Positions 56,380-63,826 of a DNA stretch of 64,000 nucleotides are shown in pieces (positions within the stretch are counted from its first letter, which is position 1; each line of letters opens with the position of its first letter). This DNA comes from Klebsiella pneumoniae (GTDB taxonomy: Bacteria; Pseudomonadota; Gammaproteobacteria; Burkholderiales; UBA3065). The notes beneath the pieces were generated by a model. That model saw only the letters and a list, made by a program, of their open reading frames with translations. It was not told where the DNA came from and made no database searches. The stretch lies in contig CAMDGF010000001.1 of assembly GCA_945897555.1 (NCBI GenBank), positions 180,866 to 244,865 of the forward strand. Direction: 5' to 3'. The translations under genes and the position numbers were made by a program.

Positions 56380-56397
56380 TGTCAGAACGGTATGACA
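56380..56397. promoter_or_regulatory. CrtJ/PpsR-type palindrome TGTCAGAACGGTATGACA in the SOUL/bch divergent region
   Basis: Exact TGT-N12-ACA with extended TGTCA/TGACA arms, 44 bp upstream of the 56442 start. Confidence 0.8.
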
Positions 56398-57795: not shown

Positions 57796-59666
57796 ACACG
57801 CTGAGCGAGGCTGTGCAGCTCGAGCGTCAGCCAGCCCTTGCGCCAGACATGGACCCGGTGGTCCATGCCGCCGAGGTGTGGGGCCGTGCCCTGCACGCCG
57901 CTGCGCTGTTCGCCATCGAGCCGGCCGCGCTGGGTGGCGTCTGGCTCAAGGCTGGCGCCGGCCCGGTGCGTGAGCGCTGGCTGGCCCTGCTCGACGCGCT
58001 GCTGCCCGGCGATATGCCGCGCCGGCGCATCCCGCTCAACATCGTCGATGAGCGCTTGCTCGGCGGCCTCGACCTCGCCGCTACGCTCCAGGCGGGGCGT
58101 CCGGTGGCGCAGCGCGGCGTGCTGGCCGAGGCGCACGGCGGGGTGGTCACCCTGGCCATGGCGGAGCGGGTCTCTGCCGCCACCGCCACCCGTCTCGCGC
58201 AGGTGCTCGACAGCGGTGAGGCTCTAGTGGCCCGCGACGGCATCGACAGCCGCCTGCCGGCGCGCATCGGTGTCGTCGCGCTCGACGAGGCCGCTGCCGA
58301 CGACGAGCCGCCCGCCACCGTGCTCACCGAGCGCCTCGGTCTGGTCATTGCGCTCGATGGGCTGTTACCGAGCCTGTGCGAGATTCCGCCAGCTGCCGAA
58401 CTGCAGGTCTGGCAGCGCGACATTGCCGCAGCGCGCGGCGCGTGGCGAAGCGTGAGCGCTGGCGACGATGTGCTGCAGGCGCTGTGCAGCACGGCGCTGG
58501 CGCTCGGTGTCGACTCGCCGCGCTTCGGTCTCGCCGCGTACAACCTGGCGCGCATGGCGGCCGCTCTCGACGGCCGCGACGAGGTCGACGCGGACGACTG
58601 CACGCTGGCCGCGCGTCTGGTCTTCGCGCCGCGCGCCACCCGCCTGCCGCCACAGCCAAGCGAGGAGTCGCCCCCTGAGAAGGCGCCCGAGCCGCCCAGC
58701 GACCAGCAACCGCCACCCGAGCAGGACCCGCCTGCCGACGACCCCGACGACATCCCCGACAAGCCGCTCGAGGACACCGTACTCGAAGCCGCTGCAGCAG
58801 CCATCCCCTTGGGTCTGCTCGCCATGCTGCAGGCCTCGCTGCTGATGGGCCGCAGTCGCAGCAGCGGCAAGTCCGGCGCCACGCAGACCCACTACCGGCG
58901 CGGCCGGCCCACCGGCTCGCGACGTGGCAGCCTGCGCCCGGGCATCCGCCTCAACGTCATCGACACGCTGCGCAACGCCGCACCCTGGCAGCCGCTGCGC
59001 CGCCGCGAGCGGGAGACTGCCGGCCTGGCAGTGCACGGCCGCGTCCTCATCCGGCCCGACGATTTCCAAGTGACGCGCTACCAGCAGCGCAGCGAGACCA
59101 CCACCTTGTTTGTGGTGGACGCCAGCGGTTCCTCGGCGCTGCACCGGCTGGCCGAGGCCAAGGGCGCGGTCGAGCTGCTGCTCGCCGACTGCTACGTGCG
59201 ACGCGACCGCGTCGCGCTGATGGCTTTTCGCGGCAAGGGTTGCGACCTCATCCTCCCGCCGACCCGCTCGCTCACCCGTGCCAAGCGCAGCCTCGCTGGC
59301 CTGCCGGGGGGCGGTGGCACGCCGATGGCCACTGCCATCGAGGCGGCGCAGCAGTTGTACGAACAGTTGTCGCGGCGCGGTGACAGCGTCGTTGTGGTGC
59401 TGCTCACCGATGGCCGCGGCAACCTCGACCGCGCCGGCAAACCCGGCCGCGCCCAGGCCGAAGCCGATGCGATGGCCGCTGCGCGGCGCGCGCGACTCAG
59501 TGGCATGGCCAGCCTGCTGGTCGACACCTCGCCACAGCCGGCGCTTCATGGCCAGCGGCTCGCGGCTGAACTCGGCGCGCTCTACCAGCCCTTGCCCTAC
59601 GCCGATCCGCGTACGCTTGGTGCGCGCATCGGTGCCAGTGTCAGGGCCTTGAGCGGCGGCAACTGA
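57792..59666 (+). CDS. bchD: Magnesium chelatase subunit D
   Basis: AAA-like N-domain, Pro/Glu-rich linker (EESPPEKAPEPPSDQQPPPEQDPPADDPDD), vWA domain VVDASGSSALHRLAEAKGAVELLLADCYVRRDRVALMAFRG; TTG start overlapping the bchI stop or a later ATG. Confidence 0.96.
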   Translation: MNTLSEAVQLERQPALAPDMDPVVHAAEVWGRALHAAALFAIEPAALGGVWLKAGAGPVRERWLALLDALLPGDMPRRRIPLNIVDERLLGGLDLAATLQAGRPVAQRGVLAEAHGGVVTLAMAERVSAATATRLAQVLDSGEALVARDGIDSRLPARIGVVALDEAAADDEPPATVLTERLGLVIALDGLLPSLCEIPPAAELQVWQRDIAAARGAWRSVSAGDDVLQALCSTALALGVDSPRFGLAAYNLARMAAALDGRDEVDADDCTLAARLVFAPRATRLPPQPSEESPPEKAPEPPSDQQPPPEQDPPADDPDDIPDKPLEDTVLEAAAAAIPLGLLAMLQASLLMGRSRSSGKSGATQTHYRRGRPTGSRRGSLRPGIRLNVIDTLRNAAPWQPLRRRERETAGLAVHGRVLIRPDDFQVTRYQQRSETTTLFVVDASGSSALHRLAEAKGAVELLLADCYVRRDRVALMAFRGKGCDLILPPTRSLTRAKRSLAGLPGGGGTPMATAIEAAQQLYEQLSRRGDSVVVVLLTDGRGNLDRAGKPGRAQAEADAMAAARRARLSGMASLLVDTSPQPALHGQRLAAELGALYQPLPYADPRTLGARIGASVRALSGGN

Positions 59667-59678
59667 GCCGGCGCCGCC

Positions 59679-60551
59679 TCAGCCGCCGGCCAGCAGGTCG
59701 ATGACGACCTGCGCCGCGCGCTCAGGCCCGGTCTCGTGCATGAGATGGCCAGCGCTCCAGCGTTCCACCCGGGCGTGCGGCAGGTACCGTGCGATCACCT
59801 GCAGCAGCGGCTCGGGTGGCACCCAGGCGTCGAGGTCGCCCACCACCAGCCGCATCGGTGCGGCCAGCCGCGCGGCATCCTCAAGCAATACGGGCAGGTC
59901 GGCTGCGGCCATGAAGTTCATCGCTCCGCGGACATGCGCGCTGTCGGAGAACAGCGTGCGATAGCGGCGTCGCTGGCCCTCGTCGAGGATCGATGCAGTC
60001 GAGTCGAGCAGCCGGTCGACCATACCCGAGGGCCCGATGGTGGCCGCAAGCAAGGCGGCTACCGGGCTCGAGGTCGCCAGCGGGTTCACCAGCGGTCCGA
60101 GGAACAAGGCATAGGCGGGCGGCGGCGGCACCAGCGAGGGCGCGTAGCCCACCAGCGCGCCAGCGCGATGCCGCCCCAGCAACGACCAGCGCAGCGCCAG
60201 CGGGAAGCCTGCCGAATGTCCGGCCACCACGGCCGGCGACCCGAGCCCGAGCACTTCGAGCAGCCCATCGAGTTGCTGCGCGATGCTCGCCAGATCGAGG
60301 CGCTCGTAATCCGCGCCATGGGTGAAGCCGTGGCCCGGCAGATCCATCGCCAGCACCCGCGCATGCTTGGTGAGCAGTGGCCACATCGGTGCCCAGCTGT
60401 GCACCGAGGCGCCGGTGCCATGCAGCAGGACCACCAGTGGGCCCTCGCCCGCCATCTGCAGGTGCCAGTCGAGGCCGGCGGCCTGCACGCGACGGCTGTG
60501 TTCACGGTTGGGCCAGTCGGCCGGGATGTCATGGGCTGGGGTCGAGGTCAT
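59679..60551 (-). CDS. bchO: BchO-type alpha/beta hydrolase
   Basis: DWPNREHSRRVQAAGLDWHLQMAGEGPLVVLLHGTGASVHSWAPM; VAGHSAGFPLALRW; position between bchD and crtE. Confidence 0.9.
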   Translation of the reverse strand: MTSTPAHDIPADWPNREHSRRVQAAGLDWHLQMAGEGPLVVLLHGTGASVHSWAPMWPLLTKHARVLAMDLPGHGFTHGADYERLDLASIAQQLDGLLEVLGLGSPAVVAGHSAGFPLALRWSLLGRHRAGALVGYAPSLVPPPPAYALFLGPLVNPLATSSPVAALLAATIGPSGMVDRLLDSTASILDEGQRRRYRTLFSDSAHVRGAMNFMAAADLPVLLEDAARLAAPMRLVVGDLDAWVPPEPLLQVIARYLPHARVERWSAGHLMHETGPERAAQVVIDLLAGG

Positions 60552-60564
60552 CGGGATTCCGGGG

Positions 60565-60582
60565 TGTCGGTTGACGCGGACA
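60565..60582. promoter_or_regulatory. CrtJ/PpsR-type palindrome TGTCGGTTGACGCGGACA overlapping a crtE -35-like element
   Basis: Exact TGT-N12-ACA; contains TTGACG at 60571-60576. Confidence 0.8.
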
Positions 60583-60589
60583 GGGCGGG

Positions 60590-60607
60590 TGTCTATTGTG
60601 ACTGACA
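60590..60607. promoter_or_regulatory. CrtJ/PpsR-type palindrome TGTCTATTGTGACTGACA overlapping a crtE -10-like element
   Basis: Exact TGT-N12-ACA; contains TATTGT at 60594-60599, 17 bp from TTGACG. Confidence 0.8.
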
Positions 60608-60671
60608 GTCTGGTGGTCAGAACAAACTTACAGTCGGCGCAGAGGTTTCGCCGTCGACGGGGGAGGGCGGC

Positions 60672-61589
60672 ATGGATACACAACTGCGGATCGAGCAGGC
60701 GCTGGACGCCGCGTTGCGCCTTGGCGAGTCTAAGGCAGCGCCGCCGCGCCTGGTGGCCGCCACCCGGCATGCGGTGTTCCCCGGCGGCGCGCGCATCCGG
60801 CCGCGTCTCTGCCTCGCCGTGGCGTGGGCCTGCGGCGACGACCGTCCGCTGCTCGCCGACGCCGCCGCCGTCGCCATCGAGTTGATGCACTGCGCCTCGC
60901 TGGTCCACGACGACCTGCCGTGTTTTGACGATGCGGCCATGCGCCGTGGTCAGGCCTCCGTGCATGCAGCCTATGGCGAACGTCTGGCGGTGCTGGTGGG
61001 CGATGCGCTCATCGTCCTCGCCTTCCGCGCGCTGGCGGTGGCCGGCCGTGACTCGCCGGAGCGCCTCGGCCGTCTGGTCACCACCGTGGCCGATGGCGTC
61101 GGCGCGCCCGAGGGCATCGTGGCCGGGCAGGCCTGGGAGTGCGAACTCAAGGCCGACCTCGCCACCTATCAACGCACCAAGACCGGAGCTCTGTTTGCCG
61201 CGGCCACCGCCGCCGGGGCGCAAGCCGCCGGGCACGACCCTGATGCCTGGCGCAGCCTCGGCGACTGGCTGGGCGAGGCCTACCAGGTGGCCGACGACAT
61301 CCGCGACGTCATGGCCGACCCGGCATTGCTGGGCAAGCCGACCGGCCGCGACGAGGACCTCGACCGCATGAGTTCGGCGCGCGAGTTGGGTCTTGCGGGT
61401 GCCGTGGCGCACTTCGATGAGCTGCTCGATCAGGCCGCGCGCTCGATTCCCGACTGCCGCGGCGCGGCTGCGCTGCGCGCATTGGTGCAGTCGGAGTCGG
61501 AGCGCCTGGTGCCCAAATCGTGGGTCAGCCGCATCCGTTCGGGGCAGGCTGTGCCGGCACGGCCGCTTCCAGCCCGCGTCGGCAGCTGA
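60672..61589 (+). CDS. crtE: Geranylgeranyl pyrophosphate synthase CrtE
   Basis: GGARIRPRLCLAVAWACG; LMHCASLVHDDLPCFDDAAMRRGQASVH; QVADDIRDVMAD. Confidence 0.93.
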   Translation: MDTQLRIEQALDAALRLGESKAAPPRLVAATRHAVFPGGARIRPRLCLAVAWACGDDRPLLADAAAVAIELMHCASLVHDDLPCFDDAAMRRGQASVHAAYGERLAVLVGDALIVLAFRALAVAGRDSPERLGRLVTTVADGVGAPEGIVAGQAWECELKADLATYQRTKTGALFAAATAAGAQAAGHDPDAWRSLGDWLGEAYQVADDIRDVMADPALLGKPTGRDEDLDRMSSARELGLAGAVAHFDELLDQAARSIPDCRGAAALRALVQSESERLVPKSWVSRIRSGQAVPARPLPARVGS

Positions 61590-61625: not shown

Positions 61626-62759
61626 ATGGCCGAGACGATGCACCTCTCCCTCATCGACCGTCTGTTCGCCTGGCGCGACCGCCTGGTGGCCAGCCCGACG
61701 TTCCAGCGCTGGGCTGCAGCCTTCCCGCTCACCCGCCCGATCGCGCGCCGGCAGGCGGCACAACTGTTCGACCTTGTCGCCGGCTTTGTCTACAGCCAGG
61801 TGCTGCTGGCCTGCGTCCGCCTCGGTGTGTTCGAGATGCTTGCCGAGGGTCCGCAGAGCGTCACCACCCTCGCGCATCGGCTGGGCCTCTCGGAGAACTC
61901 GGCGCAACGTCTGCTCGCCGCCGCTGCCTCGCTGGGGCTCCTCGCCCGCCGTGCCGATGGCCGTTACGCGCTCGGCCAGCTCGGTGCGGTGATGGTCGGC
62001 AACCGCGCGGTCGCGGCGATGGTCGAGCACCACGCCTCGGTCTACCTCGACCTCGCAGACCCGGTCGCGCTGTTGCGCCGCGACTCGCCCACCCGCCTCG
62101 CTGGCTATTGGGCCTATGCCGGCGACCAAGGCAGCGAGGTGGCGCGCCAGCTCACGGCCGAGCAGGTGGCTGAGTATTCGGCGCTGATGTCGGCCTCCCA
62201 GCCGCTGGTGGCCGATCAGATCATCGACGCCTACGACCTCGGCCGGCACCGCTGCCTGATGGACGTCGGCGGCGGCGAGGGCACCTTCCTTTGTCAGGTC
62301 GCGCGTCGCGTGCCCGGCCTCCGGCTGCGCCTGTTCGACCTGCCGGCGGTGGCCGAGCGTGGCCGCCAGCGCTTCGAGGCGCAGGGCATCGCCCACCGCG
62401 CCGAGGCCTGCGGCGGCAGCTTCTTCGACGACCCGCTGCCCACCGGCGCCGACATCGCCTCGCTGGTCCGCGTCATCTACGACCACGACGACGCGCATGC
62501 GCTGCGCATCCTGCGTGCCGTGCGTTGCGCCCTGCCGGAGGACGGCACGCTGATCCTCGCCGAGCCGATGGCGGGTACGCCGGGCGCCGAAGCCATGGGC
62601 GACGCCTATTTCGGTTTCTACCTGCTCGCCATGGGTAAAGGCGAGGCGCGCACACCCGACCAACTCGGCTCGCTGCTCAAGCAAGCGGGCTTCTCGCGGC
62701 TGCGCATCCTCGCCACCCACCTGCCGCTGCAGACCCGCGTCCTCATCGCAAGGCCTTGA
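61626..62759 (+). CDS. crtF: CrtF carotenoid hydroxyl O-methyltransferase (demethylspheroidene/hydroxyneurosporene type)
   Basis: CLMDVGGGEGTFLCQVARRVPGLRLRLFDLPAVAERG; ASLVRVIYDHDDAHALRILRAVRCALP; between crtE and bchC. Confidence 0.93.
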   Translation: MAETMHLSLIDRLFAWRDRLVASPTFQRWAAAFPLTRPIARRQAAQLFDLVAGFVYSQVLLACVRLGVFEMLAEGPQSVTTLAHRLGLSENSAQRLLAAAASLGLLARRADGRYALGQLGAVMVGNRAVAAMVEHHASVYLDLADPVALLRRDSPTRLAGYWAYAGDQGSEVARQLTAEQVAEYSALMSASQPLVADQIIDAYDLGRHRCLMDVGGGEGTFLCQVARRVPGLRLRLFDLPAVAERGRQRFEAQGIAHRAEACGGSFFDDPLPTGADIASLVRVIYDHDDAHALRILRAVRCALPEDGTLILAEPMAGTPGAEAMGDAYFGFYLLAMGKGEARTPDQLGSLLKQAGFSRLRILATHLPLQTRVLIARP

Positions 62760-62831: not shown

Positions 62832-62849
62832 TGTCAGGTTGCCCTGACA
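62832..62849. promoter_or_regulatory. CrtJ/PpsR-type palindrome TGTCAGGTTGCCCTGACA upstream of bchC
   Basis: Exact TGT-N12-ACA with 7-bp perfect arms TGTCAGG/CCTGACA. Confidence 0.82.
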
Positions 62850-62869
62850 TTTTGGCAGGTACATAAAAA

Positions 62870-63826
62870 ATGACATCTGAAGTCGCGATGAGCACCTTGG
62901 CGGTGGTACTGGAGGAGCCCGAAAGGGTGGCTCTGTGTCGCCTGCCGCTCACCCCCGCCACAGCGCGGGACGTGGTGGTGGACATCGCCTACAGCGGCAT
63001 CAGCACCGGCACCGAGAAGCTGCTCTGGAGCGGCCGCATGCCGCAGTTCCCAGGCATGGGCTATCCGCTGGTGCCAGGCTACGAGTCGGTCGGCACGGTG
63101 GTCGGCGCTGGCCGCGAGTCCGGCTTCGAGGTCGGGCAGAGCGTGTTCGTGCCCGGCGCCAAGTGCTACGGCGACGTGCGTGGCCTGTTCGGTGGCGCCG
63201 CCTCGCGCGTGGTCGTGCCCGGCGAGCGCATCCTCGCCATCGACGAGCACCTGGGTGAGCGCGGCGTGCTTTTCGCGCTCGCCGCCACCGCGCTGCACGT
63301 CACTCACGTGCCGGGCGCCCTGCAGCCCGACCTCATCGTCGGTCACGGTGTGCTCGGCCGCATGATCGCCCGCATCGCCGTCGCCCATGGCGCCACACCA
63401 GTGGTCTGGGAGACCAACGCCACGCGCCGCGATGGCGCGCAGGGTTACGCAGTGATCGACCCGGCCGATGACACCCGCCGCGACTATCGCTGCATCTGCG
63501 ACGTCAGCGGCGCCGCCGGTCTGCTCGACACCCTCATCTCGCACCTCGCTCCGGGCGGCGAGGTGGTGCTAGCCGGCTTCTACGACCAGCCCCTTGGCTT
63601 CACCTTCCCGCCGGCCTTCATGCGCGAAGCGCGCTTGCGCATCGCCGCACAGTGGCAGCCGGCCGATCTGCTCAAGGTCCGCGAGATGGTGGCCGACGGC
63701 CGTCTCTCGCTCGATGGCCTGATCTCCCACCGCAGCGCCCCACATCTCGCCGAAGACGCCTACAGCACGGCGTTCGGCGACCCTGACTGTCTGAAGATGG
63801 TCCTCGACTGGAGACACCTGCAATGA
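62870..63826 (+). CDS. bchC: 3-hydroxyethyl bacteriochlorophyllide a dehydrogenase BchC
   Basis: DIAYSGISTGTEKLLWSGRMPQFPGMGYPLVPGYESVGTVV; VWETNATRRDGAQGYAVIDP; 4-nt overlap with bchX. Confidence 0.95.
   Translation: MTSEVAMSTLAVVLEEPERVALCRLPLTPATARDVVVDIAYSGISTGTEKLLWSGRMPQFPGMGYPLVPGYESVGTVVGAGRESGFEVGQSVFVPGAKCYGDVRGLFGGAASRVVVPGERILAIDEHLGERGVLFALAATALHVTHVPGALQPDLIVGHGVLGRMIARIAVAHGATPVVWETNATRRDGAQGYAVIDPADDTRRDYRCICDVSGAAGLLDTLISHLAPGGEVVLAGFYDQPLGFTFPPAFMREARLRIAAQWQPADLLKVREMVADGRLSLDGLISHRSAPHLAEDAYSTAFGDPDCLKMVLDWRHLQ

Follow-up and report, generated by a model that had tools for sequence, protein, structure and literature searches.

A predicted PpsR/CrtJ operator pair at crtE in a little-known betaproteobacterial genus

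Results and discussion

Two exact TGT-N12-ACA palindromes lie side by side upstream of crtE in the window (i.e., the whole stretch of 64,000 nucleotides that was analysed), one on each hexamer of a predicted sigma-70-like promoter, and we consider, with a probability of about 0.9, that they are a PpsR/CrtJ operator pair that represses this promoter, probably with tuning by an AerR/PpaA-like protein. If so, the switch is of a familiar, textbook type, and its spacing is a little out of the ordinary. Beyond an earlier, sequence-only reading of the same DNA, the analysis adds a 7-bp spacer that is kept throughout the genus, a candidate third site and evidence that the operator belongs to crtE, not to the divergent bchO.

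Palindromes, promoter and pair statistics

The sequence-only reading had reported both palindromes and their distance of 7 bp, and its sequences and coordinates proved exact (the spacer is GGGCGGG, 60583-60589). It had also placed them on the -35 and -10 of a crtE promoter with 17 bp between the hexamers, in agreement with our promoter scan of 60400-60800, which returned one sigma-70-like site (9 of 12 matches; mean of 0.0 in shuffles) with one hexamer inside each palindrome. The position of this site places the crtE transcription start, by inference, near 60605-60608. The features at the promoter are as follows.

60565..60582, no strand assigned: operator A, PpsR-type (predicted), TGTCGGTTGACGCGGACA, exact TGT-N12-ACA, holds the -35 hexamer
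60590..60607, no strand assigned: operator B, PpsR-type (predicted), TGTCTATTGTGACTGACA, exact TGT-N12-ACA, holds the -10 hexamer
60571..60599, plus strand: sigma-70-like crtE promoter, TTGACG-17-TATTGT, the sole promoter-like match in 60400-60800
60615..60632, no strand assigned: candidate degenerate operator C, GGTCAGAACAAACTTACA, 7 bp after B

One such site alone means little, as the window holds nine single TGT-N12-ACA matches against 6.55 expected, and single-site counts were therefore rejected as evidence. This lack of enrichment is what a chance origin of the two palindromes has in its favor, but the pair statistics and the conservation described below stand against it, the conservation being sufficient to refute it, and we regard chance matches as practically out of the question. 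For exact pairs 7 bp apart, base composition predicts about 0.012 occurrences in the 1.8-Mb genome, while a pattern search (the method of all our genome-wide scans) found two such pairs vs none for the reversed control pattern. The looser motif TGTC-N10-GACA is hardly above its control (26 vs 19), and the stricter TGTCA-N8-TGACA occurs five times vs zero, among others before bchI, bchC and pufC. Exact matches at 59368 inside bchD and inside ppsR (L023:9869) fall in coding sequence and were taken as chance.

Conservation within the genus and a candidate third site

The exact pair, together with its 7-bp spacer, is found upstream of crtE in all five genomes of the genus, and both promoter hexamers are kept in them (TTGAC and TATTGT are invariant). 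When the five sequences are aligned, operator A has 13 invariant positions out of 18 (among them the half-sites and TTGAC) and operator B 16 out of 18 (among them TGTCTATTGTG and TGACA), while the spacer retains two of seven and the 7 bp after B none of seven. In one genome (L115) the ends of operator A have changed on both sides, from TGTC..GACA to TGTT..AACA, so that the palindrome is retained.

In each of the five genomes candidate C, which is in phase, matches five of six half-site positions; it lies 25 bp from B (26 bp in one genome) and just downstream of the inferred start site. Ten of its 18 positions are invariant vs none of the seven just before it and 10 of the 39 between C and crtE. 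On this pattern of conservation, crtE probably has a third, evenly spaced PpsR-type site in addition to the two exact ones.

Conservation across Betaproteobacteria and the question of bchO

The comparison covered crtE loci of Betaproteobacteria, 78 of them with 250 bp of sequence upstream; these loci are related, so that the counts given here are not independent. An exact TGT-N12-ACA lies within 250 bp upstream of crtE in 70 of the 78 loci, nearly always between -125 and -25; the other eight relatives are without an exact site there, and over the initial 600 bp of crtE itself the motif occurs in two of 78 loci. Among the other half-site spacings (TGT-Nn-ACA, n from 6 to 18), N14 comes next with 31 loci and the rest occur in 2 to 19. 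When the sequences are anchored on one site, further matches are most frequent at offsets of +26 and -26, with a weak second peak at +52. Near-exact pairs were found in 53 of 80 loci vs 0.3 in first-order shuffles, and in-phase triples numbered 12 (80 loci) vs 0.0. The best pair has an 8-bp spacer in 45 loci; nine loci, one of them the window, have 7 bp instead.

The gene order around the operator was established as follows, and it matches the classical crtEF-bchCXYZ-puf arrangement, as bchX, bchY, bchZ, pufL and pufM follow bchC on the same strand beyond the end of the window. The gene immediately downstream of the operator pair is crtE, which is present in all five genus genomes.

59679..60551, minus strand: bchO, TIGR03056 at 185.6 bits (cut-off 172.55), divergent from crtE
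60672..61589, plus strand: crtE, GGPP synthase type, matches polyprenyl synthase models below the equivalog cut-off and is named by context
61626..62759, plus strand: crtF-like methyltransferase, weak TIGR02716 match below the cut-off, named by context
62870..63826, plus strand: bchC, TIGR01202 at 439.5 bits

The sequence-only reading had raised bchO as a possible further target, and a shared operator, at which bound PpsR would repress bchO on the other strand as well, has some arguments on its side: the bchO start codon lies ca. 13-14 bp from operator A, close enough for the bound protein to overlap bchO initiation, and all 18 relatives (of 76) in which a divergent bchO adjoins crtE have an exact site. 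However, no minus-strand promoter-like site was found in the scan of 60400-60800, and the operator is retained nonetheless in 51 of the 58 loci where no divergent bchO adjoins crtE. The operator thus goes with crtE, which alone explains its conservation, and the case for bchO as a target is weak, although we would still give a shared operator an appreciable chance, somewhat short of even.

PpsR-type sites elsewhere in the genome

Further PpsR-type sites accompany other photosynthesis genes. The exact site of a pair before bchC is followed after 8 bp by a 5/6 site that overlaps the bchC start codon, a single site lies between a SOUL heme-binding gene and orf-bchI-bchD, and pufC, located apart from pufLM elsewhere on the contig, has a PpsR-type 8-bp pair upstream (L025:5058-5101).

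62832..62875, no strand assigned: PpsR-type pair before bchC, an exact site (62832-62849), 8 bp, then a 5/6 site (62858-62875)
56380..56397, no strand assigned: single site of PpsR type, TGTCAGAACGGTATGACA, flanked by the SOUL-family gene (minus strand) and orf-bchI-bchD (plus strand)

A site resembling the one at 56380-56397 was seen in another genome of the genus (L134) before a gene with a SOUL-like start, and two other genus genomes have 8-bp pairs near pufC (identified in L128, with the same layout in L129).

These additional sites before bchI, bchC and pufC also bear on whether the palindromes could be the property of another regulator with a similar half-site. A similar conserved pair in front of a Fur-family gene, away from the photosynthesis cluster, speaks for such a regulator; against it are, besides the photosynthesis sites, the N12 spacing, by far the commonest upstream of crtE, and the presence of a PpsR with an intact HTH, and we consider it very improbable.

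The Fur-family gene deserves a description of its own. The second exact TGTN12ACA-N7-TGTN12ACA pair of the genome (G000:C4:103222-103264; L024:8223-8265) lies ca. 24 bp upstream of it; four of the five genus genomes have the pair in exact form, and the fifth departs from it by a single base. The gene product is Irr/PerR-like, below curated cut-offs, and 25 of 26 more distant relatives in the order (ca. 40% identity) are without a site in front. The sequence is compatible with PpsR control or with autoregulation, either of which may apply; a literature search, with most subscription journals outside its reach, returned nothing specific on PpsR control of Fur-family genes. Another site outside the photosynthesis cluster, TGTCACAGGAAACTGACA at L027:4407-4424 (C29:13406), lies upstream of an FtsX/MacB permease gene and is nearly identical, core included, in four genus genomes.

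The regulator and a proposed mechanism

A search for ppsR/crtJ, the check suggested along with the first reading of the sites, which would have been refuted had no homologue turned up, located ppsR at C1:129864-131180 (TIGR02040, 468.1 bits vs a cut-off of 275.4), and the protein, with PAS and Fis-type HTH (HTH_8) domains, is encoded in all five genus genomes (458-475 bits). Upstream of ppsR lies a gene for a B12-binding AerR/PpaA-like protein, followed by a divergent bchF, an order (bchF, B12 protein, ppsR) common to annotated alphaproteobacterial clusters of Roseobacter and Novosphingobium. The HTH cysteine (C420 in CrtJ) corresponds to C428 of the aligned protein and is invariant in four diverse PpsR proteins and four genus members. 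A valine is aligned with the partner cysteine of R. sphaeroides PpsR (4hh2) and with the Roseobacter PpsR cysteine, a position equated with CrtJ C249 by residue count. With valine in place of the partner cysteine, this PpsR cannot make a CrtJ-type disulfide in the same manner.

By analogy with the characterized systems, we postulate that PpsR would bind A and B cooperatively, lie over both hexamers of the crtE promoter (-35 and -10) and so block RNA polymerase. Repression would target crtE-crtF, and also bchCXYZ-puf by possible read-through. The weaker C would probably add one more in-phase unit to the array, with 25 bp between centres, and the AerR/PpaA-like B12 protein encoded beside ppsR probably tunes the repression. 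With this neighbor and the three BLUF proteins encoded in the genome, a light input is plausible. Redox control appears less secure: in Rubrivivax gelatinosus the binding of PpsR is redox-dependent with a 9-bp spacer only, not with 8 bp (PMC4452267), and these data, together with the missing partner cysteine, speak against taking a strong redox switch for granted. Of the redox/light repression of crtE-crtF originally proposed, the PpsR/CrtJ operator pair thus holds, with PpsR present and the pair conserved, while the redox part is weakened.

PpsR might instead act here as an activator or dual regulator. The Rubrivivax gelatinosus protein is reported as both repressor and activator in work cited by two papers (PMC5362033, PMC4452267), and CrtJ with AerR extends its binding in a way modelled as activating (PMC5362033). 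Nevertheless, the coverage of both promoter hexamers is the geometry of occlusion, and deletion of ppsR in Rubrivivax led to aerobic de-repression (pucB ca. 190-fold, crtI ca. 25-fold; PMC4452267), so that we deem such a role unlikely and retain plain repression of crtE by the operator pair.

More speculatively, crtE may carry an array of three in-phase PpsR sites spaced by 7 bp (a period of 25 bp), unlike the 8-bp pairs of bchC and pufC, and spacing alone would then let one repressor respond differently from promoter to promoter (blind to redox, or dominated by light, at crtE), an idea we put forward tentatively and think more apt to fail than to hold. Since PpsR binding in Rubrivivax responds to redox or not according to whether the spacer is 9 or 8 bp, the genus, with natural 7-bp spacing beside 8-bp sites in one genome, offers a clean test of whether spacing sets promoter-specific responses. 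The results also bring a well-studied photosynthesis switch into a betaproteobacterial genus about which little is known.

Comparison with known systems

The 7-bp spacer is slightly shorter than those of published close pairs (8 or 9 bp), and our literature search, which most subscription journals lay beyond, gave nothing specific on published 7-bp PpsR pairs. The arrangement at crtE is most readily compared with Rhodobacter capsulatus bchC, where CrtJ footprints a pair of palindromes over -35 and -10, likewise two TGT-N12-ACA sites with one over each element, but with a spacer of 8 bp (-47 to -30 and -21 to -4) as opposed to 7 bp here (PMC5362033); moreover, bchC is described with two sites, whereas a candidate degenerate third follows the pair at crtE. 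ChIP-seq in R. capsulatus places CrtJ peaks upstream of crtED as well (PMC5362033). Closer in taxonomy, pucB and crtI of Rubrivivax gelatinosus share with our locus a betaproteobacterial PpsR and paired palindromes, which at pucB lie over -35/-10, but their half-sites are degenerate and their spacers 9 and 8 bp, while here both sites are exact and 7 bp apart (PMC4452267). Finally, the Burkholderiales phototrophs in our collection (L034-L112) likewise have an operator between -25 and -125 of crtE, often with TGTCTATNTT over the likely -10; their spacer is mostly 8 bp, however, and their strong sites often equal B and C, whereas in the window they are A and B.
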